Assembly (NCBI RefSeq): GCF_018882295.1
Contig: NZ_JACVOR010000001.1
Location: 186,001 to 250,000, forward strand
DNA: 64,000 nucleotides
Reading direction: 5' to 3'
Origin: Polynucleobacter sp. 80A-SIGWE
GTDB taxonomy: Bacteria; Pseudomonadota; Gammaproteobacteria; Burkholderiales; Burkholderiaceae
Shown here: one piece after another, positions 5,148-42,044 of the stretch
Layout: each line of letters opens with the position of its first letter
How positions within the stretch are numbered: position 1 is the first letter of the stretch
Made by a program: the position numbers and the translations under genes
The notes under the pieces: model-generated
What the model was told of the DNA's origin: nothing
What the model saw: the letters and a program-made list of their open reading frames with translations, nothing else
Database searches by the model: none

Positions 5148-5810
5148 TTACTTGTACTTGTCCTTGCGGATTTTTTGCTCCAAGTAATCCATCACTGCAA
5201 TCGCTTTAGCTTTGGTTCCAGCAATCGATGGAGAGGTCACATAGCGACCCTGCATCACAATAGTTGGCACGCCATCAATGCGGTAAGCATCAGCCATCTG
5301 TCTTGCCGCACGGGCTTTAGAAACAACCGCAAATGAACGATAAGTAGCCAAGAAAGTATTGCGATCAATACCCTGAGAAGCAACCCAATCTGCAATCTCA
5401 TTTTCTGTCATGAGACGCTTATTTTCTTTATGCATGGCGTACATCACCTTGTCATTCATCGCCTCACCCTTGCCCATAGCCTCTAAGGCATAGAACAATT
5501 GGCTGTGTGGCATGAAGTCATCACGGAAGGCAACTGGCACCTTACGGAATGTGACATCCTTTGGTTGGCGCTTGAGCCAAGCATTTAACTCTGGCTCAAA
5601 GTCATAGCAATGCGGGCAACCATACCAAAAGAACTCGATGACTTCGACCTTGCCTTTAGATTCAACGGGCTGAGGGACAGGCAGAATGCGGTAATCAAAT
5701 CCCTCTTCGATCTTAGGACTTTGCGCAGTAGCAAGGCCTGAAAAAGAAAAGGCCAGACCAAGAATGGTTGCGGATAAAAGGGCTCTCTTAGACTTAGATA
5801 ATGTAATCAT
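5148..5810 (-). CDS. dsbA: Periplasmic thiol:disulfide interchange protein DsbA
   Basis: A 220 aa thioredoxin-fold oxidase. A signal peptide covers residues 1-29 (KRALLSATILGLAFSFSGLATA). The active site is C65-P-H-C68 in FFWYGCPHCYDFEP, and a cis-proline loop GVPTIV lies near residue 184. The length agrees with DsbA. It would introduce disulfide bonds into exported proteins, which matters here because the Cys-rich lipoprotein at 26759-27133 should need oxidation. The start codon overlaps the stop of the upstream SPOR gene (ATGA), so argS, the SPOR gene and dsbA probably form one transcript. Confidence 0.95.
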   Translation of the reverse strand: MITLSKSKRALLSATILGLAFSFSGLATAQSPKIEEGFDYRILPVPQPVESKGKVEVIEFFWYGCPHCYDFEPELNAWLKRQPKDVTFRKVPVAFRDDFMPHSQLFYALEAMGKGEAMNDKVMYAMHKENKRLMTENEIADWVASQGIDRNTFLATYRSFAVVSKARAARQMADAYRIDGVPTIVMQGRYVTSPSIAGTKAKAIAVMDYLEQKIRKDKYK

Positions 5811-6471: not shown

Positions 6472-8199
6472 TTACATCTTAGCGGGTGCTGATACACCCA
6501 ATACTTTTAATCCATTTTCAAGCACTTGACGAGTCGCCGAAAGTAAGGCGAGACGGGCTAATTTCAATGCAGGGTCGTCCACCAAAACGCGGTCTGCGTT
6601 ATAGAAAGTATGGAAGTCTCCCGCTAAATCACGCAAGTAGAAAGCCAAAGCATGTGGCGCCAAATCTGCAGCCGCATCAGTGAGCATTTCTGGGTATTCA
6701 GCTAAGCGGCGCAATAAATGATCCGAAGCTTTGCTTTGCAACAAAGAAAGGTCTGCGCCCTTCAGATCAGAAACTTGTCCGCCCCATTGAGTCAAGATTG
6801 AGCAAATGCGAGCATGAGCGTATTGCACATAGAAAACTGGGTTCTCATCATTCTGCTGTAAGGCTAAATCCACATCAAACACAAATTCAGTATCGGCTTT
6901 GCGAGAGATGAGGAAGAAACGCACGGCATCTCGTCCACGCTGCAGTGCAAGCTCGCGCTCATCAGCAGTCATCTCTGGCGTAACTCCACCAGACCACTCA
7001 ACCAAGTCACGCACAGTCACATAGGAGCCTGCACGTTTAGATATTTTGACTTCTTCACCATGGCGCATCACTGTCACCATCTTATGCAATACATACTCAG
7101 GGTAGGTTTTTGGAATCTCCCAACCACGCTTCTGAGCCACGCCCTGTAAGCCTGAGCGCACACGGGTGATCGTGCCATGGTGATCACTGCCTTGGACATT
7201 AATCACTTTTTCAAAGCCACGATTCCATTTACTGGTGTGATAAGCAATATCAGGCACAAAGTAGGTAAAGCTACCATCAGACTTTCGCATGACGCGATCT
7301 TTATCATCACCATCATCTGTTGTCTTGAGCCAAAGTGCACCCTCAGACTCATAGGTCTTACCAATGCTTTGCAGCTCTTCGACAATTTTTGCAACACTAC
7401 CATCGGTATACAAAGAAGACTCTAGGTAGTAGCAATCAAACTTCACACCAAATGTTTTTAAATCGATATCTTGTTCATTGCGTAAATACGCAACGGCAAA
7501 TTGACGAATGGCCTCAAGATCATCTTTATATTCAGATGAAGCCTTAAAAGCGGTTGCAATCTCTGCAATGTATTCACCGTTATAAGCGCTCTCTGGCCAA
7601 GCGGCATCACCTGGCTTAAGTCCATTTAATCGAGCTTGCACTGAGAGTGCCAAGTTCGCAATCTGGACTCCAGCATCGTTGTAATAAAACTCGCGGTGCA
7701 CTTTAATGCCCTGCGTTGCTAATAAGTTTGCCAAGGCATCGCCGAGTGCAGCCTGACGGCCATGACCAACGTGTAGTGGTCCAGTCGGATTAGCAGACAC
7801 AAACTCAATCATGGCACTGGAGACTGGGGCAGCTTCTGGAGCTAACTGACCAAACTGGGATCCTGCCGTGAGAACCTCTTGTACCACCGCAGTTTTAGCG
7901 GCGTTGCTCAGGCGAAAGTTGATAAATCCAGGGCCCGCGATTTCGCAAGAGGCGATGAGGTCAGCATAGCCGGGCTGCTGCTCAAGGCGCTCAACCAACG
8001 CTTGAGCCAACTCCCTAGGATTTAGCTTCCAAGCTTTGGAGAGCTGGAGGGCAATATTGCAAGCGACATCGCCATGGTCTACTGCCTTAGGGCGCTCTAA
8101 ACGAGGTGCAGGGGCATCGCCCAAACTACGCTCCTGAGCTAAACCCTGCAGGGCTGCGCTCAGCATTTCAATTAAACGATTTTTATTAGTTAACAACAT
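6472..8199 (-). CDS. argS: Arginyl-tRNA synthetase
   Basis: A 575 aa class I aminoacyl-tRNA synthetase that charges tRNA-Arg. The HIGH-like motif is HVGH at residues 143-146 in [16 protein letters not shown]. The KMSKS-like motif is KISK near residue 384 ([17 protein letters not shown]). An N-terminal Add1-type domain precedes the catalytic core, and a C-terminal DALR anticodon-binding domain ends in [10 protein letters not shown], as is usual. It is divergent from the DUF1840 gene, with 35 bases between the starts, and heads the transcript toward the SPOR gene and dsbA. Confidence 0.97.
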
Positions 8200-8234
8200 A
8201 GATAAGTGAGTTTATCAGGTGGTAAGCTATCGAA

Positions 8235-8552
8235 ATGATCTATCAATTTCGCTCCAAAGCGGGTCCTGACGTCATCATGCTGGCTGATCTGACCCAGCGA
8301 ATCTTTGAAATTTTGGGCCGCCCATTAGAGCCGAGAGGTATTTTGACGGTTGAGCAATTGCCAGCCCTCATCACCGCCCTAGAAACCGCCATTCTGAAAG
8401 ACCTGGAAGAGCGGGCTAAAAGTAATGCGGCTGATCAAGAAAATACTGAAAAACCGAAGCTGGCCGATAGGCTGGGCCAGCGCGCCTACCCCTTCTTAGA
8501 GCTCATGAAACAGTCCAAAGCCAAAGATGAGCCAGTGATGTGGGGCGTTTAA
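8235..8552 (+). CDS. DUF1840 family protein
   Basis: A small soluble protein of 105 aa. The pattern MIYQFRSKAGPDVIMLADLTQRIFEILGRPLEPRGI written in parts, that is MIYQFRSKAGPDVIML followed by ILGRPLEPRGIL, and the closing KAKDEPVMWGV are those of DUF1840, found mainly in betaproteobacteria. It has no signal peptide or membrane helix, and no catalytic motif is evident. It is monocistronic, divergent from argS and convergent with metH. The function is unknown. Confidence 0.82.
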   Translation: MIYQFRSKAGPDVIMLADLTQRIFEILGRPLEPRGILTVEQLPALITALETAILKDLEERAKSNAADQENTEKPKLADRLGQRAYPFLELMKQSKAKDEPVMWGV

Positions 8553-8573
8553 AGCACCACATCTAGGAAGCTA

Positions 8574-11321
8574 TTAGTCGATCGAGCTAGCCAGCTGGCG
8601 ACGGATGTCTTCAACAGACTCATTACGGCGCTTAGCAAGATCTTCAATCTGGTCTGCTGACAACTTGCCTACATTGAAATAACGCGCGTCTGGGTGTGCC
8701 AAGTAAAAACCACTGACACTAGAAGCCGGGTTCATGGCCATCGACTCAGTCAAGGTCATACCAATGTCTTCCGAACCAATCACGCGCAATAAATCTTTTT
8801 TCACTTCATGTGCAGGACAAGCTGGATAACCTGGCGCCGGGCGGATGCCGCGGTATTCCTCATTGATCATTTGGTCATTCGTCAAAATCTCATCAGTTGC
8901 GTAACCCCAAAGATCTGTACGAACGCGATGGTGCATCAACTCTGCAAACGCCTCTGCCAAACGATCAGCCAAGGATTGCAACATGATTGCGCTGTAGTCA
9001 TCATGCTTTGCATGAAACTCAGCAACTTTTTTCTCAACACCGTGACCGGTTGTAACAGCAAAGCAGCCGAGGTAGTCAGCCACCTTAGAATCTTTTGGCG
9101 CTACATAATCCGCCAAGCAACGATTAGGTCGACGAACCCCATCAACTACTGGGCGCTCAGACTGCTGACGTAAGTTGTGCCAAACAAACAATGGGTGCTC
9201 GCGCGATTCATCGCTGTATAAGACGATGTCATCACCTATCGTGTTTGCTGGATAGAAAGCCACTACCGCATCAGCCTGCAACCACTGACCTTTGATTAAT
9301 TTATCTAATAGAGCCTGGCCATCTTCAAATACTTTGCGAGCCTCTACGCCAACAACTTCATCATCCAAGATTGCTGGGAACTTACCAGCCAAATCCCACG
9401 TCTGGAAGAATGGCGTCCAATCAATGTATTTAGCAATATCACTTAAAGCGAAATTCTTAAAAACACGGCGCCCAATAAACTTCGGCTTCTCAGGCACATA
9501 ACTAGCCCAATCAATCAGCTCGCGATTCTTGCGTGCAGCTTCTAAAGAGATCGTTGGCGATGCTTTCTTGTTGGCATGCTGCTCACGAATACGGACATAA
9601 TCATCGCGCAGATCTTGAATAAATTTCTTAGCGCTTTCATCGGATAGCAAGCTTGATGCAACGGATACCGAGCGGGACGCATCAGGCACATAGACCACAG
9701 GGCCATCGTAATGTGGCGCAATCTTCACGGCAGTATGCACACGAGAAGTTGTAGCGCCACCAATCATCAGCGGAATTTGACGTTCACGGAAATAATCATC
9801 ACGTTGCATCTCTTGAGCAACGTAAGTCATCTCTTCTAAGGATGGAGTGATCAAACCAGATAACCCAACAATGTCTGCTTTTTCTTCTTTGGCACGTTTC
9901 AGAATTTCTGCGCAAGGGACCATCACACCCATATTGGCAACTTCAAAGTTATTACATTGCAGCACTACTGTCACAATGTTTTTACCAATATCGTGCACGT
10001 CACCTTTAACGGTCGCCATCACAATCTTGCCTTTGGCCTTGGCTTCGCCTCCAGAAGCAATATGCAGGCGCTTTTCTTCCTCAATGTAGGGAATCAAAAT
10101 CGCTACCGCTTGTTTCATGACACGCGCACTCTTAACCACTTGTGGCAAGAACATCTTGCCAGCACCAAACAGGTCACCAACAACGTTCATGCCATCCATT
10201 AAAGGGCCTTCAATGACCTCAATTGGACGGCCACCTGCACCCATAATTTGGGCACGCAGCTCTTCAGTATCTTCTTCAATAAAGGTAGTAATGCCATGCA
10301 CTAAAGCATGAGTTAAACGATCACGCACGGGGGCTTCACGCCATACCAAGTTCTCTACTTGCTTGGCGCCACCGCCCTTAAATTGGTCAGCAATATCTAG
10401 CAAACGCTCAGTTGGAGTCTTGCCGTCTTTTTCTTTAAAACGATTGAGCACCACATCTTCAACGCGCTCACGCAATTCAGGATCTAGGTCTGCATAAACG
10501 CCAAGCTGCCCCGCATTGACAATACCCATGTCCATACCCGCTTGAATGGCGTGATACAGAAACACAGTGTGAATGGCTTCACGTACGCGATCGTTACCGC
10601 GGAAAGAGAAGCTAACGTTGGAGACGCCACCACTCACTTTCGCGCCCGGCAGATTTTCTTTAATCCAGCGAGTCGCATTAATGAAATCTACTGCGTAGTT
10701 ATCGTGCTCTTCAATACCAGTCGCAATGGCAAAGATATTAGGGTCAAAAATAATATCTTCTGCTGGGAAGCCAATCTCATTCACCAGAATTTGATAGCAG
10801 CGCTGACAAATTTCAGTCTTGCGTTTAAAAGTGTCTGCTTGACCTACTTCATCAAAAGCCATCACTACAGAAGCTGCGCCGTAACGACGAATTAGACGCG
10901 CTTGTTTTCTGAAAGGCTCTTCACCCTCTTTGAGAGAAATTGAGTTAACAATCGGCTTACCTTGAATACATTTCAGACCCGCTTCAATCACACTCCATTT
11001 AGAGGAGTCGATCATGATTGGTACACGAGCAATGTCAGGTTCTGAAGCAATCAAATTCAAGAAGCGCGTCATCGCTGCTTCAGAATCTAACATCGCTTCA
11101 TCCATATTGATGTCAATGACTTGAGCGCCATTTTCAACTTGCTGTCTTGCAACTACCAAGGCTTCATCAAATTGATTATTCAAAATCATGCGGGAAAATG
11201 CTTTGGAGCCTGTAACGTTAGTGCGCTCACCAATGTTTACAAAACCTACTTCAGGCGTGACATTGAAAGGCTCTAAGCCTGAGAGCTTCATTGGCGGCAT
11301 TGCCTTAGTAGTCTTACTCAT
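8574..11321 (-). CDS. metH: Methionine synthase, folate/B12/activation half
   Basis: A 915 aa protein holding the three C-terminal modules of cobalamin-dependent methionine synthase. These are a pterin-binding TIM barrel (about 20-290; [14 protein letters not shown]), a cobalamin-binding region (about 350-570) with axial-ligand motif DVHDIG near residue 441, and a SAM-binding reactivation domain (about 590-900) with [13 protein letters not shown]. It transfers the methyl group of 5-methyl-THF through cob(I)alamin to homocysteine. The homocysteine-binding module is supplied by the upstream gene, with a 4-base overlap. No cobalamin riboswitch is visible in the short leader upstream. Confidence 0.96.
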
Positions 11322-24244: not shown

Positions 24245-24670
24245 TTATTTCCTTTGAAAAATTGATTTAACTTCTTTTAAAACTGTCACTACTTGTTCAA
24301 TTTCTTTTTTACTTAACTTCCCGAAAGCTTTGCTTAGATATTCCACATGCTCTGGAAATACCTTCTTAAATAACTTGTCACCGCTCTTCGATAAGCCAAT
24401 CTTGTAGCTACGTCCATCGTCGGCATTCATAAACTTTTCAATGAGGCCTTTGGCCTCCAGTCGCTCCAGAACGCCCGTCATGGTGCCCTTGGAAACGAGT
24501 GTCTTATCCCCCAGCTCCTTGCAAGTCATCGGAGGCTGATTGCCTAGGGTCGCAACAATATCGAACTGGGTCGTTGTTAAGCCCATCTCTTTGATATGCG
24601 CTCCAGAGTACGCTTCAAAGGCTTGATATGCCTGAACCAATTCCTTAACGAGCGATAGGTGATTCATCAA
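24245..24670 (-). CDS. MarR family transcriptional regulator
   Basis: A 141 aa winged-helix regulator. The DNA-binding unit is MTCKELGDKTLVSKGTMTGVLERLEAKGLIEK in segments (helix-turn-helix TCKELGDKTLVSKGTM, then wing NADDGRSYKIGLSKSG). It is the first gene of the flavodoxin/pirin operon and has repeated GTACTA half-sites in its own promoter, so autorepression with release by quinones, phenolics or oxidants is the likely mode. The inducer is not visible. Confidence 0.9.
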   Translation of the reverse strand: MMNHLSLVKELVQAYQAFEAYSGAHIKEMGLTTTQFDIVATLGNQPPMTCKELGDKTLVSKGTMTGVLERLEAKGLIEKFMNADDGRSYKIGLSKSGDKLFKKVFPEHVEYLSKAFGKLSKKEIEQVVTVLKEVKSIFQRK

Positions 24671-24694
24671 AGTACCTCAATTTAGTCTGTATGC

Positions 24695-24721
24695 GTACTA
24701 GTTTAGTACTAGTTCGTACTA
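24695..24721. promoter_or_regulatory. Probable MarR operator, three GTACTA half-sites
   Basis: GTACTA at 24695-24700, its inverse TAGTAC at 24704-24709, and GTACTA again at 24716-24721. These form two interlocking inverted repeats with 3- and 6-base spacers, 25 to 51 bases upstream of the marR start. Position and symmetry suggest an autoregulatory operator. Confidence 0.65.
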
Positions 24722-24835
24722 ATTGCAAGACCCTACAGAAAACAGGATCTTATTGCGCAGAGTCTGGATTACGAAAAATTGTTGGATTGACTGGGCGGGC
24801 GCCCAAGGAAAATGCTAAACAGTAATAGCTAGATT

Positions 24836-24857
24836 CTGAGCGGGGAAACCCGCTCAG
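24836..24857. terminator. GC-rich hairpin after the autotransporter gene
   Basis: A 9-bp stem CTGAGCGGG / CCCGCTCAG with a 4-base loop, 18 bases beyond the autotransporter stop. On the minus strand the sequence after it is only weakly T-rich, so it may stop transcription or protect the 3' end. No other element is clear between 24722 and 24835 apart from an open frame discussed in the findings. Confidence 0.5.
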
Positions 24858-24875
24858 AGGGTTGAGTCATTAGCC

Positions 24876-26753
24876 CTACAGACCAACCATGTATGTAGCC
24901 ATTACAGAAGTGGTTGTAACACCCTGATATGGCTCTTGACGATAGATGCCATTGATACCCAGGCGCTGATTCTTAGCTAGATCATAGTAAGCACCCAATG
25001 TGGCGGTAGCGCGAGTTCTTACAGGGCTTGCATTGAAATTGATGGAATTTAAGCCATATAAACCAGTGGCAGTGTAATTACCGTTACTAGTGTTCAGATC
25101 ATTTTCTAAGCCAGCACTGGCTAGTAAAACAACATCCGGCATCAGCTTGTAGTTGGCACCCAAACCAGCAACAACAGTTGTAGCGTTTGTATTTACTGCA
25201 CCATAAGTCAAGGGCGCTGTCACAGCAGCAGAACTACCCTCAGTGTAGCCACCCATATTATTTTGTGAATACCGCAACCCTACATATGGAGACACAGTGG
25301 TTTTATCAGCAACAGCAAAGCCATACTTACCAATTGCTTGAGCACCCTGGGATGTCAACGTAGAGGAGCCACTTCCTGCCTCAGTTCCATCAACAACTGG
25401 ACGAGTCATTGTTGTGTTCTTTTGACCATAGCCAGCAGAAACTTTAACTTCCGCACCCGTACCATCTAAGCGCTCAATCCAAACGCCAAATACACCAACC
25501 ATTGGACTGGCATTAGCAACCTTCACAATGCCTGTTGAATTGGTTGAGACATTTTGATCGATATAAGCACCCATACGAATCTGATTGTTCATTCGGTATG
25601 CACCAATCAATAGTCCGCCAGTACTATTCACGGAGTCGGTATTAGCCGTTGTATAACGACCACCAACGGATACGCAAACATTGTTCTTATCAAACACTGG
25701 GCAATCGTAAGTAAAGCCATTTACGAGCACTGTGTTTTGAAGGGTGAATGCATTTTGAAGAGCAGCCGTAGTTTGATTTAAAGCAGCCATTGCTGAAGTG
25801 TTGGTGCCACTAAAAGTCAAATCCCAATTATCAGTGCCCGCCACTGCGCCTAGTGTCCAAGTTAAACCTTGGTAAGTTCCAGTCCTAGTTGCTCCAATAT
25901 TGCCAGTAGGCAAATTCTCTAAAACATTGGCATATGAATTCGTGGTGATAGCCGATCCAGCATAAACCCCAAAATTCATTGGTCCAGAAGTAGGATTTGC
26001 GGGCAATACAAAGTAAGTTTGACCGTAATTTACTGCGCCACCAAAAATAATGACGTTGTAATTGCTTGGTAGTTTGGCGCGATAAAACAAATCATTCTGC
26101 GCGCTATTTAACGTTCCGATAGTTCCAGTATTGTCAATGCCTGAACCAGAAGCACCGAAACCAGTATGAGCAGAGCCCGTGACAGCACCTAAAGCTAAGT
26201 TAGTAATAGTGCCAACCGAACCACTATTGAGAAATCCATACGCACCCGTATTTGAAACTACAGAACCTGAATTAATAAAAGTACCGATTGTTCCACTAGC
26301 ACCACCAGGAATAGATGCATTTTGTATTGCGTTAGTTGTGGTGCTTTGAATAGTACCGCTGTTGTTTAAGTTTGTAATAGCTCCGGAGGGTGAGATATAT
26401 ATGGAATTACCAGTTAGCCCGTAAATATTCCCAGTGTTATTGAAATTTGAAATAGTAGCGCCACTTTGAACAGCGACACCAAAGGAACTACCAGGGTTGA
26501 TTGTTGCATTATTGGTAAATGTACCGAGTAAAACACCAGAGCCAGTCGTATTGAAACTACCGGACCCGGTTGCGGTTAGGGAGTAATTATTGGTTATTGA
26601 TCCGGTAGAGGTATTTACCGTTAAATCGGAACAGTCAGCGGTAGGACTGGCATTGGCTGTACAGGCAGTTGCATGACTGAGACTTGAAAATCCACTCAAA
26701 CCTCCGATAAGTGAAATTTGAACTAAAGCTAATAATTGATTTTTGATTTTCAT
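24876..26753 (-). CDS. Autotransporter with beta-helical repeat passenger
   Basis: A 625 aa type V secreted protein. A signal peptide covers residues 1-29 (LVQISLIGGLSGFSSLSHA). The passenger (about 30-325) is rich in G, N, S and T with loosely repeated units such as NFNNTGNIYG, NLNNSGTIQS and FINSGSVVSN, as in a right-handed beta-helix. A linker with two cysteines (YDCPVFDKNNVCVS) leads to a C-terminal autotransporter barrel (about 350-625) that ends in MATYMVGL. The passenger is short and has no catalytic or RGD-type motif I recognise; adhesion or biofilm function is a guess. It follows the Cys-rich lipoprotein gene by 5 bases. Confidence 0.88.
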   Translation of the reverse strand: MKIKNQLLALVQISLIGGLSGFSSLSHATACTANASPTADCSDLTVNTSTGSITNNYSLTATGSGSFNTTGSGVLLGTFTNNATINPGSSFGVAVQSGATISNFNNTGNIYGLTGNSIYISPSGAITNLNNSGTIQSTTTNAIQNASIPGGASGTIGTFINSGSVVSNTGAYGFLNSGSVGTITNLALGAVTGSAHTGFGASGSGIDNTGTIGTLNSAQNDLFYRAKLPSNYNVIIFGGAVNYGQTYFVLPANPTSGPMNFGVYAGSAITTNSYANVLENLPTGNIGATRTGTYQGLTWTLGAVAGTDNWDLTFSGTNTSAMAALNQTTAALQNAFTLQNTVLVNGFTYDCPVFDKNNVCVSVGGRYTTANTDSVNSTGGLLIGAYRMNNQIRMGAYIDQNVSTNSTGIVKVANASPMVGVFGVWIERLDGTGAEVKVSAGYGQKNTTMTRPVVDGTEAGSGSSTLTSQGAQAIGKYGFAVADKTTVSPYVGLRYSQNNMGGYTEGSSAAVTAPLTYGAVNTNATTVVAGLGANYKLMPDVVLLASAGLENDLNTSNGNYTATGLYGLNSINFNASPVRTRATATLGAYYDLAKNQRLGINGIYRQEPYQGVTTTSVMATYMVGL

Positions 26754-26758
26754 TTTTC

Positions 26759-27133
26759 TTACTCGTTTTTATATACGTTCACCGTTCCACCACAAGTAGC
26801 AAAACACTGTCTATACGATTCATCACACTGCCAGTAATTCGGATTTGCTGGGCAGTACTGAGGATTAGGATTGCACTTCTTCACATCATCATGGCTTTGC
26901 GCGCGATTAACACAGGCTTGATAGCTGTAATTATTTTGTTGGTGGCAATTATTGGCATTGTTCTGCGCCTGCTGACCCATGGCGTTGTAACAAACTTGCT
27001 TGGTTGTCATGCATTGAGTTGCGCAAGTTCTACCTGTTTCAGTTGCAGGGGCAATGTATTCGTAACGGTAGGTAGTGCAAGCGGTCAAGCCTACTGCGAC
27101 CAATAGCCCTGCGAATAGTGCCCTAATCATCAT
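26759..27133 (-). CDS. Cysteine-rich lipoprotein of unknown family
   Basis: A 124 aa lipoprotein (lipobox LTAC, lipidated C19) with ten more cysteines: 37, 41, 48, 63, 74, 87, 94, 103, 110 and 114. The first three have spacing C-x3-C-x6-C and the last three the mirror image C-x6-C-x3-C, as expected for two antiparallel helices stapled by disulfides. The middle is rich in N and Q. An even number of free cysteines fits an oxidised envelope protein that would need DsbA. It lies 5 bases upstream of the autotransporter and is divergent from a TetR gene. I do not recognise the family. Start may be the first or second ATG. Confidence 0.8.
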   Translation of the reverse strand: MMIRALFAGLLVAVGLTACTTYRYEYIAPATETGRTCATQCMTTKQVCYNAMGQQAQNNANNCHQQNNYSYQACVNRAQSHDDVKKCNPNPQYCPANPNYWQCDESYRQCFATCGGTVNVYKNE

Positions 27134-27140
27134 TATTTGT

Positions 27141-27150
27141 TAACATGTTA
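27141..27150. promoter_or_regulatory. Palindrome in the lipoprotein/tetR divergent region
   Basis: TAACATGTTA, a perfect 10-bp palindrome 8 bases upstream of the lipoprotein start, in an AT-rich 70-base divergent region. It is a candidate operator for the adjacent TetR-type regulator; its closeness to the start fits repression. No clear second copy is seen. Confidence 0.4.
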
Positions 27151-27203
27151 TCTATAATACCTATAATTATTACATAGAAACTTACCGGTTTTATTAGCCT
27201 ACG

Positions 27204-27794
27204 ATGACAAAAGATATTGAAAAGCTAGAAGAAAAAGCTAAAAAATCTCAAAGGCAGATTGATTCAATTGTAAAAGTGGCTCATCGTCTATTTGAGAAAA
27301 CTGGATATGAGCAAGTGGGGATGCGCGAAATCAGTGCTGCAGCCAATACAACCCCAATGCAGCTATATCGCTTAGGGCTTGATAAACAGGATTTATTGGC
27401 CGAAGTCATCCTAAAAGTAAATGCCAAACAAATCGAAGGCATTAAACCATTTAAAGCAAGCAAAACTGGCTCAGCCTCAAAGTTCGTTGAGGGCTATTTA
27501 CTAACACTGTATGAACAAGATATCGCACTAAAGAGTATTCGCAAGGAAGGCGCAGCATTTGGCTGGAAATGGTCTGAGAAATATGAGTCTTTAATTATTG
27601 AACAGCTCATGCAGATCATCAAACCCATCTCAGATGCTCTTATATACGATGGCTTTGATGACATTCAGGCAAGATGCTTTGGTATTTGGTCGCTCTACTA
27701 TGTAGGCTATCGAAACGCAGTCATGAATAATGCGGATGCTCAAGCTTGCCTTGATTCCATCAAACCAAGTTTGAAACTACTCCTAAGGAAATAA
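27204..27794 (+). CDS. TetR/AcrR family transcriptional regulator
   Basis: A 196 aa regulator. The N-terminal TetR HTH can be seen in KVAHRLFEKTGYEQVGMREISAAANTTPMQLYRLGLDKQDLL (read as ALFEKTGYEQV-like helix 1, then MREISAAANTTPMQLYRL). A charged 15-residue lead precedes it. The C-terminal ligand domain is not assignable. It is divergent from the Cys-rich lipoprotein/autotransporter pair and is followed after one base by a small exported protein gene, so it may control both sides. The ligand is unknown. Confidence 0.85.
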   Translation: MTKDIEKLEEKAKKSQRQIDSIVKVAHRLFEKTGYEQVGMREISAAANTTPMQLYRLGLDKQDLLAEVILKVNAKQIEGIKPFKASKTGSASKFVEGYLLTLYEQDIALKSIRKEGAAFGWKWSEKYESLIIEQLMQIIKPISDALIYDGFDDIQARCFGIWSLYYVGYRNAVMNNADAQACLDSIKPSLKLLLRK

Positions 27795-27795
27795 G

Positions 27796-28128
27796 ATGAA
27801 ATACGCTATTGCACTGGCATTGATGATTATCGCCCTGCCCGCCTTTGCAATTGAGAGGCCTGAAGGCGTTGTTTATTGCCACGGCAAAACGGTCGTGGAG
27901 TTCCGTCTGGTGAATCCTGAAAAAAATGGTACTGCATCTGATGTTGATTTAACGATCAACGGTAAGACTAGTCGCGTAATGACTGCCTATTCTTGGTTTG
28001 GATCAAACCAAGCTAGCCCCAAAGGGTTTAAGTTTGCGATTCTTGGTGAAAAGCAGTTTGATCCACTTTTGGTATTTGATGGCTATCTTCTGGACGCTAA
28101 GAAGCAAAAATACACAAAGTGCAACTGA
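27796..28128 (+). CDS. Small exported hypothetical protein
   Basis: A 110 aa protein with a clear signal peptide (MKYAIALALMIIALPAFA) and two cysteines, C28 and C109, that could join the ends of the mature chain. The body looks like an all-beta fold (VVEFRLVN, DVDLTING, FKFAILGEKQF). It starts directly after the tetR stop, so the two genes are cotranslated. I do not recognise the family. A periplasmic location is likely. Confidence 0.75.
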   Translation: MKYAIALALMIIALPAFAIERPEGVVYCHGKTVVEFRLVNPEKNGTASDVDLTINGKTSRVMTAYSWFGSNQASPKGFKFAILGEKQFDPLLVFDGYLLDAKKQKYTKCN

Positions 28129-28134
28129 GTCAAA

Positions 28135-29967
28135 CTACTCGACCGTAACGCTCTTTGCGAGGTTGCGTGGCTTGTCGACATCGGTACCTAGGGCACAAGC
28201 GGTGTGATAGGCCAGCAGCTGTAATGGAACTACATGGAGGATTGGGGAAAGTTTTCCGTAGTGCTCAGGCAAACGAATCACATTGATGCCTTCACTACTA
28301 GTGATCTCGGTATCTTGATCTGCAAAGACATACAGCTTACCGCCACGTGCTTTGACTTCCTGCATATTGGACTTGAGTTTTTCTAGCAAATCGTCGTTAG
28401 GGGCAACTGTGACTACTGGCATCTTCTCAGTAACAAGTGCGAGCGGCCCATGCTTTAACTCACCTGCTGGATAAGCTTCAGCATGAATATACGAAATCTC
28501 TTTTAACTTGAGAGCACCTTCAAGGGCAATTGGGTAATGCATTCCACGACCCAAGAACAAAGCATTTTCACATTTAGCAAATGCAGTGCTCCAAGCCATA
28601 ATCTGAGGCTCAAGTGCTAACACTGCATGCAAAGCTTTTGGCAAATGGCGCAAGTCACGCAAAAGCTCTTTTTCTTGTTCAGGGCTGACCTTGCCTGCGC
28701 GCTTGGCTAATGAAACAGCTAGCAGATAGAGCGCAACTAATTGGGTCGTAAAGGCTTTAGTAGAAGCCACGCCAATCTCAGTGCCAGCCTTGGTTAAGAA
28801 ATTCCAATTCGTTTCGCGAACCATGGCGCTACTTGCAACGTTACAAATCGCCAGGGTGTATTGATGACCCAAAGACTGGGCATGACGTAAGGCTGCCAAA
28901 GTATCCGCAGTCTCACCAGACTGGGAAACCACCACAATTAATGTATTCGGGTTAGGAACAGTGGTGCGATAGCGATACTCGCTCGCGATCTCAACCTGCG
29001 TCGGAATACCAGCTAAATCTTCTAGCCAGTATTTAGCAACACAAGCAGAGTAGTAACTAGTGCCGCAAGCCAGAATCAGAATCTGATCAAACTTCCTCCA
29101 CTGCTCAGGATCCGCATTAAAGAGTTCCGGGCCAAAGCTAACAATATTGGCCAGCGTATCGCCGATCGCTCCTGGCTGCTCAAAAATCTCTTTTTGCATG
29201 TAATGCTGATAAGGACCTAGATCCACTGAGTCAGCTTGTGCAGGCATAGCCTTATGCTCTCTTTGCACAGATTTACCGGCTTGATCAAGGATCTCAATGC
29301 CTTCAGCCTTCAGAATGGCTACATCACCCTCTTCGAGATACATCATCGAATGTGCGCGACCAGCTAAAGCCAGTGCATCAGAAGCGAGGAAGTTTTCATT
29401 CTCACCAAGCGCCACAACCAAAGGTGATCCAACGCGTGCACCAACTAAAACATCCGGACGATCTTGCGCAATCACACCGATCGCATAAGCGCCATGTAGT
29501 CGTGGCAATACAGATCGTACTGAAGCAACTAAATCAACCTGCTTGCTTGCTACATAAGCTTGATGAATTAAATGCGCGATCACTTCAGTATCAGTTTCAG
29601 ATGCAAATACATAACCTGCAGACTTCAACTCTGTACGCAGTGATTCGTAGTTCTCAATAATGCCGTTATGAACAACCGCAATCAATCCATCAGAGATATG
29701 AGGATGTGCATTTTGTGTGTCTGGTTTACCGTGCGTTGCCCAGCGGGTGTGAGCAATACCTAAAGTGCCGTGAAAATCCTTACCCTGCTCGGCTAACTCA
29801 GAAACGCGAGCGGTAGTACGAGCACGCTCAATTGGATGCTTTGCATCATCGCCATTAATTACGGCAAAACCACATGAGTCGTAACCGCGATATTCAAGGC
29901 GGCGCAGACCTTCGATCAATACTTCAACAATATTCTTACGCGATGCTGCGCCAACGATTCCGCACAT
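28135..29967 (-). CDS. glmS: Glucosamine-fructose-6-phosphate aminotransferase (isomerizing)
   Basis: A 610 aa enzyme that makes glucosamine-6-phosphate from fructose-6-phosphate and glutamine, the first step to UDP-GlcNAc. The nucleophile is C2 (MCGIVGA) of the N-terminal glutaminase domain (2 to about 240), with [10 protein letters not shown] and DSCGFA motifs. Two SIS domains follow ([30 protein letters not shown]), and the end [13 protein letters not shown] is canonical. It overlaps the upstream glmU by one base (TAATG). No glmS ribozyme exists upstream, as expected for a proteobacterium. Confidence 0.97.
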
Positions 29968-40396: not shown

Positions 40397-41842
40397 TTAA
40401 TAACGGTAGTGGTCAGCCTTGTATGGGCCTTCCTTCGTTACGCCAATGTAAGAAGCTTGCTGATCTGACAATACAGTTAACTGTGCATTCAATGTCTTGA
40501 GCTGCAAACGAGCAACCTTCTCATCTAAATGCTTAGGCAAGGTGTAAACACCGACTGGGTATTTATCTGTACCAACTGCATTCCACAATTCGATCTGTGC
40601 AATCACTTGGTTCGCAAATGAAGAGCTCATTACATAAGATGGGTGTCCTGTACCGCAACCCAAGTTAACTAAGCGGCCCTTAGCCAAGATGATGATGCGC
40701 TTCTCAGGATTGCCATTAGCTGCCGGGAAAATCACGTGATCTACTTGTGGCTTGATTTCTTCCCACTTGTACTTCTCGATACCAGCAACATCAATCTCGT
40801 TATCGAAGTGACCAATATTACAAACGATGGCTTGGTTCTTCATCTTGATCATATGATCATGTGTAATCACATGGTAGTTACCTGTTGCGGAAACAAAGAT
40901 GTCTGCCTTATCTGCGGCGTAATCCATTGTGACAACACGGTAGCCTTCCATTGCCGCTTGCAATGCGCAGATTGGATCTACTTCAGTAACCCAAACTTGA
41001 GCAGACAAAGCACGTAGAGCTTGAGCTGAGCCTTTACCCACATCGCCGTAACCACAAACCACTGCAACCTTACCGGCAACCATGACGTCAGTAGCACGCT
41101 TGATCGCATCAACTAAAGATTCGCGGCAACCATAGAGGTTATCGAACTTGCTCTTAGTAACAGAATCGTTCACATTAATTGCTGGGAACTTCAATTCACC
41201 CTTAGCAAACATCTGATAGAGACGATGTACACCAGTAGTAGTTTCTTCGGTTACGCCTTTTACTTTTTCTAAGCGTGTGGAATACCAAGTTGGATCTTGC
41301 GCCAATTTCTTTTTAATAGCCGCGAACAAAATAGTTTCTTCTTCGCTGGTTGGATGATTCAAGCAAGCTTGATCTTTTTCAGCGCGTGCGCCGAGGTGCA
41401 ATAACAAAGTCGCATCGCCACCGTCATCCAAAATCATATTGGTGAAGCCGCCATCTGCCCACTCAAAAATACGGTGGGTGTAATCCCAATACTGCTCAAG
41501 GGTTTCGCCCTTGATCGCAAACACTGGTGTGCCGTTTGCAGCAATCGCTGCAGCAGCATGATCTTGTGTAGAGAAAATATTGCAAGATGCCCACTGCACT
41601 TCAGCGCCAAGCGCTTCAAGCGTCTCGATCAACACTGCAGTTTGAATGGTCATGTGCAATGAGCCAGTAATACGTGCGCCACGCAATGGTTGCTGTGATG
41701 CGAACTCGTCGCGAATCGCGATGAGGCCTGGCATTTCAGTTTCAGCAATGGCGATTTCTTTACGACCAAAGTCAGCCAAAGAAATATCGGCGATAGCGCA
41801 ACGGGTTGCTACAAAGTTATTTAAATCGGAAACGGTACTCAT
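40397..41842 (-). CDS. ahcY: S-adenosylhomocysteine hydrolase
   Basis: A 481 aa enzyme that splits SAH to homocysteine and adenosine with bound NAD. Marks are [17 protein letters not shown], the NAD loop [13 protein letters not shown] and the C-terminal KADHYRY. The ATG at 41842 has GGAG nine bases upstream and starts [10 protein letters not shown]; the frame is open to 41902 but that part encodes the riboswitch expression region. The ribosome binding site lies in a hairpin downstream of an SAH riboswitch, so expression should rise with SAH. Confidence 0.97.
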
Positions 41843-41847
41843 GAATG

Positions 41848-41876
41848 CTCCAGCTAAATACGATCCAATGCTGGAG
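41848..41876 (-). promoter_or_regulatory. Hairpin sequestering the ahcY ribosome binding site
   Basis: In the RNA, CTCCAGC (41870-41876) can pair over 7 bp with GCTGGAG (41848-41854), which contains the ahcY Shine-Dalgarno sequence. The loop is 15 bases. It is the natural expression platform for the riboswitch upstream: closed without ligand, open when SAH is bound. The alternative pairing partner was not worked out. Confidence 0.65.
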
Positions 41877-41883
41877 TAGAAAC

Positions 41884-42014
41884 TCGCTAGCCATTGAATC
41901 ATGGGTTAGCGAGCGCAGTTGCAATTAGCAAACTCTGGGGTTACCTAGGAGTCCACTCCCTTCAAGCCTGGGGAAACGCTGGTTCTCAGCATTCCTTGCA
42001 ACGCTCCTTGAAGG
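41884..42014 (-). ncRNA. SAH riboswitch
   Basis: The minus-strand leader of ahcY-metF fits the S-adenosylhomocysteine riboswitch. P1 pairs CTTCAAG (42007-42013) with CTTGAAG (41960-41966). P2 is a hairpin of GGAATGCTG (41987-41995) with CAGCGTTTCC (41972-41981). The pseudoknot P4 pairs GAGCGTTGCAA with TTGCAACTGCGCTC (41911-41924, three bulged bases). The conserved strings GGAGCGTTGCAAGG, CCAGGCTTGAA and GCAACTGCGCTC are all present. A further hairpin (41884-41912) follows. The class is known to switch translation or transcription on when SAH accumulates, and ahcY removes SAH. Confidence 0.92.
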
Positions 42015-42044
42015 TATGGCGAAATTGTAATCAATTTCGCCATA
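42015..42044. promoter_or_regulatory. 13-bp perfect inverted repeat over the likely ahcY promoter
   Basis: TATGGCGAAATTG (42015-42027) and CAATTTCGCCATA (42032-42044) are perfectly inverted about four bases. On the minus strand the centre contains TACAAT (42024-42029), a good -10 box whose start site would fall near 42017, just before riboswitch helix P1. A third half-site ATTTCGCC lies at 42044-42051, ten bases from the second. It may be an operator for a DNA-binding regulator, or less likely a metK terminator, as no T run follows. Confidence 0.6.

Follow-up and report, generated by a model that had tools for sequence, protein, structure and literature searches.

A lipoprotein with mirror-image cysteine spacing, from an undescribed proteobacterial family, precedes interchangeable type V secretion genes in Polynucleobacter

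Introduction

What does a small cysteine-rich lipoprotein do when its gene stands directly ahead of a type V secretion gene, and when that downstream gene is of one kind in one genome and of another kind in the next? This question is raised by a locus in a 64,000-nucleotide stretch of Polynucleobacter DNA, hereafter the window. A sequence-only reading of this DNA had noticed that the ten non-lipidated cysteines of one lipoprotein include two groups, at residues 37-48 and 103-114, whose spacings mirror each other. It proposed that both groups lie on helices facing each other in an antiparallel hairpin (pairs 37-114, 41-110 and 48-103), likened the arrangement to twin-Cx motifs and suggested a scaffold or chaperone. 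Here, we follow the protein through its homologues, its predicted fold and its gene neighbourhood; the features of the locus are collected in Table 1.

Table 1. Features of the lipoprotein locus, in window coordinates
Feature	Position	Strand	Basis or remark
Type Va autotransporter, 625 aa, PF03797 barrel	24876..26753	-	5 nt downstream of the lipoprotein gene
Cys-rich lipoprotein gene, 124 aa, ATG start, ten non-lipid Cys	26759..27133	-	homologues found
Mirror half 2, C103-x6-C110-x3-C114, then invariant GG	26792..26827	-	sequence, alignment, AF2
Mirror half 1, C37-x3-C41-x6-C48, on predicted helix 1 (residues 32-79)	26990..27025	-	sequence, alignment, AF2
Lipobox L-T-A-C19, +2 residue Thr (not Asp)	27077..27088	-	sequence; lipid Cys invariant in homologues
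Palindromic stretch GTTAACATGTTATC/GATAACATGTTAAC, predicted TetR operator	27139..27152	.	between the lipoprotein and TetR genes
Divergent TetR-family regulator, 196 aa	27204..27794	+	Pfam; in about half of the sister loci
Small secreted protein, 110 aa, two Cys, no recognised family	27796..28128	+	1 nt after the TetR gene; kept in sister loci
Conserved block: lipoprotein, TetR and small secreted genes	26759..28128	.	DNA similarity to L005, L006, L009, L010 and L011

Results

Cysteine layout of the window lipoprotein

By inspection, the protein has the signal peptide and the lipobox ending in cysteine (LTA-C19) that define a bacterial lipoprotein. Under the general Lol rule, a lipoprotein with a residue other than Asp at +2 is expected to be sorted to the outer membrane. 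Thus, because this residue is Thr, the lipoprotein is predicted to sit at the outer membrane, on its periplasmic side. Its non-lipid cysteines are residues 37, 41, 48, 63, 74, 87, 94, 103, 110 and 114, and no other open reading frame of at least 60 codons in a six-frame translation of the window shows the mirror pattern. The chance that the first two cysteine gaps mirror the last two is 0.78% under shuffling of the nine observed gaps and 0.26% when ten cysteines are put randomly into 96 residues, so the window sequence by itself is no more than suggestive. It is the homologues that settle, at the sequence level, that the pattern is real.

An undescribed family of lipoproteins with mirrored cysteines

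The mirror-cysteine lipoproteins are an undescribed proteobacterial family, found in several classes and defined by a lipobox followed by C-x3-C-x6-C and then by C-x6-C-x3-C-GG, a definition that the window protein satisfies. With the window genome counted wherever it was included, matches were obtained in 4 of 61 near relatives, in 17 of 186 genomes of the genus Polynucleobacter, 21 of 399 of the order, 23 of 369 of the class and 10 of 398 of the phylum, as well as in two other classes (3/48 and 8/190); these counts include a few weak or broken matches. A named genome collection added nine loci with a family member. Searches of viral contigs and plasmids found no relatives of the window lipoprotein, and so gave no hint that the gene comes from a phage or plasmid.

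No described family in Pfam or NCBIfam was reached above cut-off by the window protein. In Pfam, where the window protein alone stood for the short form defined below, a scan with E up to 1 gave only a sub-threshold match to Fic-like_C, and NCBIfam had no match for this protein. Fifteen short-form members, used as a profile against PDB sequences (E up to 1), returned 0 matches. In the open-access literature, too, none of the papers listed dealt with mirror-cysteine lipoproteins or connected them with type V secretion, subscription papers being mostly outside the scope of this search. Several candidate likenesses were set aside. PRK10040 of NCBIfam was hit by three of the 15 short-form members (best E 0.0006), and the match inspected, that of L008, scored 15.4 against a 93-bit cut-off. 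Among 12 long-form members, Pfam matches to Strep_SA_rep (two members, best E 0.0008), MNNL (two), DUF4389 (one) and LPAM_1 (one) were taken as chance resemblances of coiled coils, cysteines or signal peptides, and the PDB sequence matches of the long form, the best to influenza HA2 (E 0.035), as heptad-like chance.

The family comes in two forms: a short one, to which the window protein belongs (about 106 mature residues), and a long one (about 165), which carries a coiled-coil-like insert and a Trp/Tyr/Pro stretch. All ten non-lipid cysteines are invariant across the 15 short-form members. When both forms are aligned (17 rows, 17-43% identical to the window protein), the invariant positions are the six mirror cysteines, C94, the lipid cysteine, P29 and the GG after C114. 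More broadly, an open reading frame with all six mirror cysteines followed by C-G-G or C-S-G is present at 63 of the 71 places matched by the family searches, which are mostly non-repeated, one gene being counted twice. The other eight include one with unreadable letters, a weak match in broken frames (L092), three that are broken or remnants (L113, L158 and L159), and two with a replaced mirror cysteine (the C37 equivalent in L108, and C110 to Tyr in L156). The remaining exception, L115 (genome G1289), keeps the six mirror cysteines within an extended mirror of 3-6-3 facing 3-6-3 and has no GG. The mirror spacing described by the sequence-only reading is therefore borne out by sequence and homologues alike, and a loss of the cysteines in homologues, which would have spoken against it, was not what these 71 places and the 17-row and 15-member alignments revealed. 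In addition, one member, L041 (genome G773), has a five-by-five mirror, 3-6-3-6 facing 6-3-6-3.

Cysteine parity and probable pairing

The number of non-lipid cysteines is even in all 55 distinct mirror-pattern frames, with six in one, ten in 23, 12 in 25 and 14 in six; this set was preselected for the mirror pattern followed by CGG, and frames that did not fit had been excluded beforehand. Moreover, a cysteine 15 residues after the first mirror cysteine and a cysteine two to four residues before the second half are both present in 30 of the 55 and both absent in 25. Each trait changes five times on a tree from which the cysteine columns had been left out, and only two independent pairs lie on well-supported branches, which makes the raw Fisher value of 3e-16 for this co-occurrence unusable. 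Even counts with paired presence and absence fit disulfides, as far as sequences can indicate them.

The three pairs named by the sequence-only reading, 37-114, 41-110 and 48-103, are supported, the residue numbers of each summing to 151, and would form nested disulfides. Because the mirror pairs are nested, 63-94 and 74-87 are suggested as further, likely rungs. C-x3-C-x6 amounts to an 11-residue repeat, and the cysteines of helix 1 (37, 41, 48, 63 and 74) fall on one stripe, with a resultant of 0.96 at an 11-residue periodicity and 0.80 at 3.6. In ideal-helix geometry, the spacing is satisfied by an antiparallel mirror or by a parallel register. The antiparallel register is favoured by L112, which has just the six mirror cysteines and a short link of eight residues between the halves; L112 may itself be a truncation, since a TAG lies inside its profile match soon after the GG. 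The window genome holds DsbA-, DsbB- and DsbC-family genes, the last with a DsbC_N match. The window itself contains a DSBA-domain match (5238-5642, minus strand), which may belong to an isomerase-type relative and not to DsbA.

A predicted helical hairpin

AF2, given the mature window protein and nine relatives, modelled strand 3-9, helix 14-61, helix 82-95 and strand 99-105 (mature numbering) with a pLDDT of 85.8 and a pTM of 0.62; of its five models, one scored poorly, with a mean of 38.1. In precursor numbering the second helix spans residues 100-113, so that mirror half 2 lies on it and just past its end. For the protein of L013, which is 28% identical, the order of strand, long helix, helix and strand was repeated (pLDDT 80.6). 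Thus, the helical hairpin of the sequence-only reading, which a different predicted fold would have contradicted, is well supported by modelling for the window protein and recurs in L013. Among solved structures, Foldseek gave weak matches (best E 0.67), and a further structural aligner reached a Z of at most 5.3, with generic hairpins only. Viral structure models likewise gave only weak matches to the fold, and the lack of closer ones in these collections carries no weight.

Different type V genes follow the same lipoprotein

In Polynucleobacter, a type V gene lies directly downstream in all 16 loci that hold more than a lipoprotein remnant. These loci, drawn from 17 matching genomes of the genus, comprise 15 full-length lipoprotein frames and the broken one of G1338; the remnant of G1392 is excluded. 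Three kinds of payload occupy the downstream position: a type Va autotransporter with a PF03797 barrel in 14 loci (the window, L007, L008, L009, L010, L011, L012, L043, L161, L162, L163, L164, L165 and L166), a YadA-type (Vc) protein with head, stalk and anchor in L005, and a TpsB protein (Vb) of the ShlB/FhaC type in L006. With our choice of start codons, the spacing from lipoprotein to type V gene in the 15 loci with a full-length lipoprotein runs from -8 to +15 nt, except for 49 nt in L005. Despite their Va, Vc and Vb payloads, the lipoproteins of the window, L005 and L006 are 84-89% identical. At the DNA level, compared over window positions 24501-28400, similarity of the window to L005, L006, L009, L010 and L011 ends at the lipoprotein stop codon (26759/26760) and on the far side reaches 28113-28128; with L007, L012 and L164, it also covers, or picks up again within, the related autotransporter.

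The autotransporter barrels fall into two main classes, 25-36% identical between classes in alignments of at least 150 residues. Nine payloads share one barrel class, and most loci are therefore not independent. At least five payload changes are needed on the lipoprotein DNA tree, which is weak and has one starred branch. One autotransporter, in L163 (G1366, 7466-9508, minus strand), looks chimeric, with a passenger start that by eye resembles that of the window and a barrel of the other class (VaII). Beside the TpsB gene of the Vb locus no TpsA was recognised, the one TPS-domain match of that genome lying elsewhere. Related autotransporters also occur without the lipoprotein gene. Together with the match rate in the genus (17 of 186 genomes), this indicates that the lipoprotein is not required for such proteins generally. 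A cysteine pair shared by the beginnings of the linked passengers was rejected as a recognition signal, as it is also present in five of eight autotransporters from other genomes that lack the lipoprotein, those with the start in view. In G033, another genome of the genus, an open frame on contig C1 (about 775163-795316) runs for 10,516 codons and has autotransporter-like repeats.

A conserved block with its own regulator, and its decay

Nine of the 16 Polynucleobacter loci have the TetR gene, and 14 of the 15 whose lipoprotein frame is full-length have the small secreted gene. The motif TAACRYGTTA, which occurs once in the 64-kb window and starts 15-20 nt ahead of the start codon, was found in 8/8 loci with TetR and 0/7 without it, L166 and L046 being outside this test. 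No mobile-element terminal repeats stood out around the conserved block. Three genomes show decay. G1341 (L164/L156) has a broken autotransporter frame and a lipoprotein with Tyr in place of C110 and an extra cysteine; in G1338 (L166) both genes are broken; and G1392 (L167) retains a 26-aa lipoprotein remnant near a contig end, with no type V gene seen by eye among the open reading frames of the 9 kb around it. This joint decay possibly reflects shared local decay without functional dependence, or in part sequencing errors. Elsewhere in the window, an SAH riboswitch (Rfam RF01057, 47.6 bits; 41904-42015, minus strand), the only Rfam match at the gathering threshold, lies just upstream of a frame at 40397-41902 (minus strand).

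Other neighbours outside one clade

The association with type V genes is confined to one clade, made up of Polynucleobacter and G252, a genome from another family of the order whose locus (L046) has in this order a TetR gene, the lipoprotein, a YcgJ-family gene and an autotransporter. Upstream of the TetR gene of G252 lies a long, by eye perfect inverted repeat (L046, 9020-9060), possibly its operator. Outside the clade, relatives adjoin ampE/aceE, peptide-transporter genes, motA/motB, or nothing recurrent. The lipoprotein gene directly precedes aceE in L129, L132, L133 and L135, from four different families, and in three of these an ampE-type gene precedes the lipoprotein; Pfam checks cover AmpE of L129 and the E1 subunit of L132, and the other ampE/aceE calls were made by eye. 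L129 has two tandem lipoprotein copies, of different forms. In L126 (checked with Pfam) and L125 (by eye) the gene lies within a peptide ABC-transporter operon, and in L122 directly after motA/motB, MotB being confirmed with Pfam. Given these varied contexts, the basic job of the family need not concern type V secretion, and its ancestral job may have been broader.

Discussion

With moderate confidence, we propose that the lipoprotein is a disulfide-locked accessory factor at the outer membrane for interchangeable type V proteins, a proposal in which the fold is modelled and the pairing, location and role are our own deductions. The genes of the operon are closely packed and in the window are probably controlled by the divergent TetR; the lipoprotein would be made just ahead of its type V protein. 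DsbA and DsbB would oxidise the lipoprotein and DsbC, proposed here because the pairs are non-consecutive, would isomerise it, so that it folds as an antiparallel helical hairpin stapled and locked by nested disulfides. It may then hold, escort or dock the unfolded passenger or barrel near the BAM machinery on the way to the surface. If what it recognises is a general property of type V clients and not one client, the downstream gene could be exchanged among Va, Vb and Vc proteins while the lipoprotein stays. The scaffold or chaperone role suggested by the sequence-only reading is thereby better founded through gene context, since within the genus the lipoprotein gene stays beside type V genes that are interchangeable; the function itself is still deduced from sequences.

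Other explanations have to be weighed. The stapled hairpin could be an envelope or surface protein in its own right, such as an adhesin support or rigid spacer that is co-regulated with its neighbour and gives no help in export. A structural role suits a rigid disulfide rod, the broad family has unrelated contexts elsewhere, and the same conserved block includes the gene of a small secreted protein; however, the exchange of Va, Vb and Vc genes beside the same lipoprotein and the joint decay suggest dependence on type V proteins, and we consider simple co-display rather unlikely. It is improbable that the lipoprotein has a regulatory or signalling role and adjusts how strongly the adhesin gene behind it is expressed, the kind of effect reported for FAD-I, which is encoded upstream of RadD in Fusobacterium. 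The order is the same, a lipoprotein directly before an autotransporter-like adhesin, and the radD transcript is described as rising without fad-I (PMC7023056), but the window locus includes a TetR gene of its own with an operator-like palindrome, and no DNA-binding or signalling domain was recognised in the lipoprotein by Pfam or NCBIfam.

The many conserved cysteines and the C-x3-C pairs could also speak for a protein that responds to metals or redox state through reduced cysteines. This we regard as quite improbable: the even counts (55/55) and the paired presence and absence fit disulfides, the invariant alignment columns include no His, the window protein has by eye no CxxCH, and the genome encodes DsbA-, DsbB- and DsbC-family proteins. 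Immunity proteins, for their part, vary along with their toxin. Although the tight coupling with exoproteins, a TpsB among them, recalls an immunity-type lipoprotein that acts against a toxic payload, the near identity of the lipoprotein in three loci with different payload kinds and the lack of a toxin domain in Pfam scans of the payloads make this explanation highly improbable.

A lipoprotein that stays while its partner switches among Va, Vb and Vc amounts to a natural experiment on substrate range, in a freshwater genus. In addition, the cysteine pattern describes a clear, designable disulfide-ladder architecture that was unmatched in Pfam, NCBIfam and PDB-sequence searches. It is tempting to extend the accessory-factor proposal into a more speculative, tentative picture: a bacterial solution resembling the small Tim proteins, in which an outer-membrane-anchored disulfide-ladder hairpin, built on the 11-residue repeat, would act as a holdase or docking factor open to type V clients in general, and other members of the family, which spans several proteobacterial classes, may serve other envelope clients.

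The small Tim proteins (Tim9/Tim10, twin CX3C) are antiparallel helical hairpins with nested CX3C disulfides that form mitochondrial oligomers. Similarly, the window protein carries one CX3C motif at each predicted helix, C37-x3-C41 at helix 1 and C110-x3-C114 at helix 2, with a probable antiparallel pairing; in contrast, it is a lipoprotein, it has an additional outer pair of cysteines (x6), and its two halves are separated by a long stretch. The likeness to twin-Cx motifs drawn by the sequence-only reading holds for the spacing logic only, and Pfam, NCBIfam, PDB-sequence and Foldseek searches found no homology to small Tim or twin-CX3C proteins. The motif of alpha-hairpinins also has a CX3C form. 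These plant proteins, described as a helix-loop-helix with four cysteines in a fixed motif (PMC11591084), differ from the window protein as short antimicrobial peptides with four cysteines, and none surfaced in the family scans.

Partner genes next to type V adhesins have precedents. TpgA is one beside trimeric autotransporters, according to PMC8151025. FAD-I, described as a 129-aa lipoprotein encoded directly upstream of the autotransporter-like adhesin RadD in the radD operon of Fusobacterium (PMC7023056), likewise is a small lipoprotein placed before such an adhesin; by its description it is set apart by the reported effect on radD transcription and by a main text from which the word cysteine is absent. 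SadB is described as an inner-membrane lipoprotein whose gene lies upstream of that of the trimeric autotransporter SadA in one operon, and which E. coli K-12 has lost along with the adhesin (PMC3953254). The window gene shares this arrangement by adjacency, strand and spacing, standing directly upstream of a type V gene in what appears to be the same operon. However, SadB is reported to be trimeric, with Asp at +2, a likeness to MATH domains and one trimeric adhesin as its partner (PMC3953254), whereas the window lipoprotein has Thr at +2, and thus lacks the inner-membrane retention signal, is a Cys-rich predicted hairpin whose modelled monomer consists of two helices and two flanking strands, and belongs to a set of loci with Va, Vb and Vc payloads.
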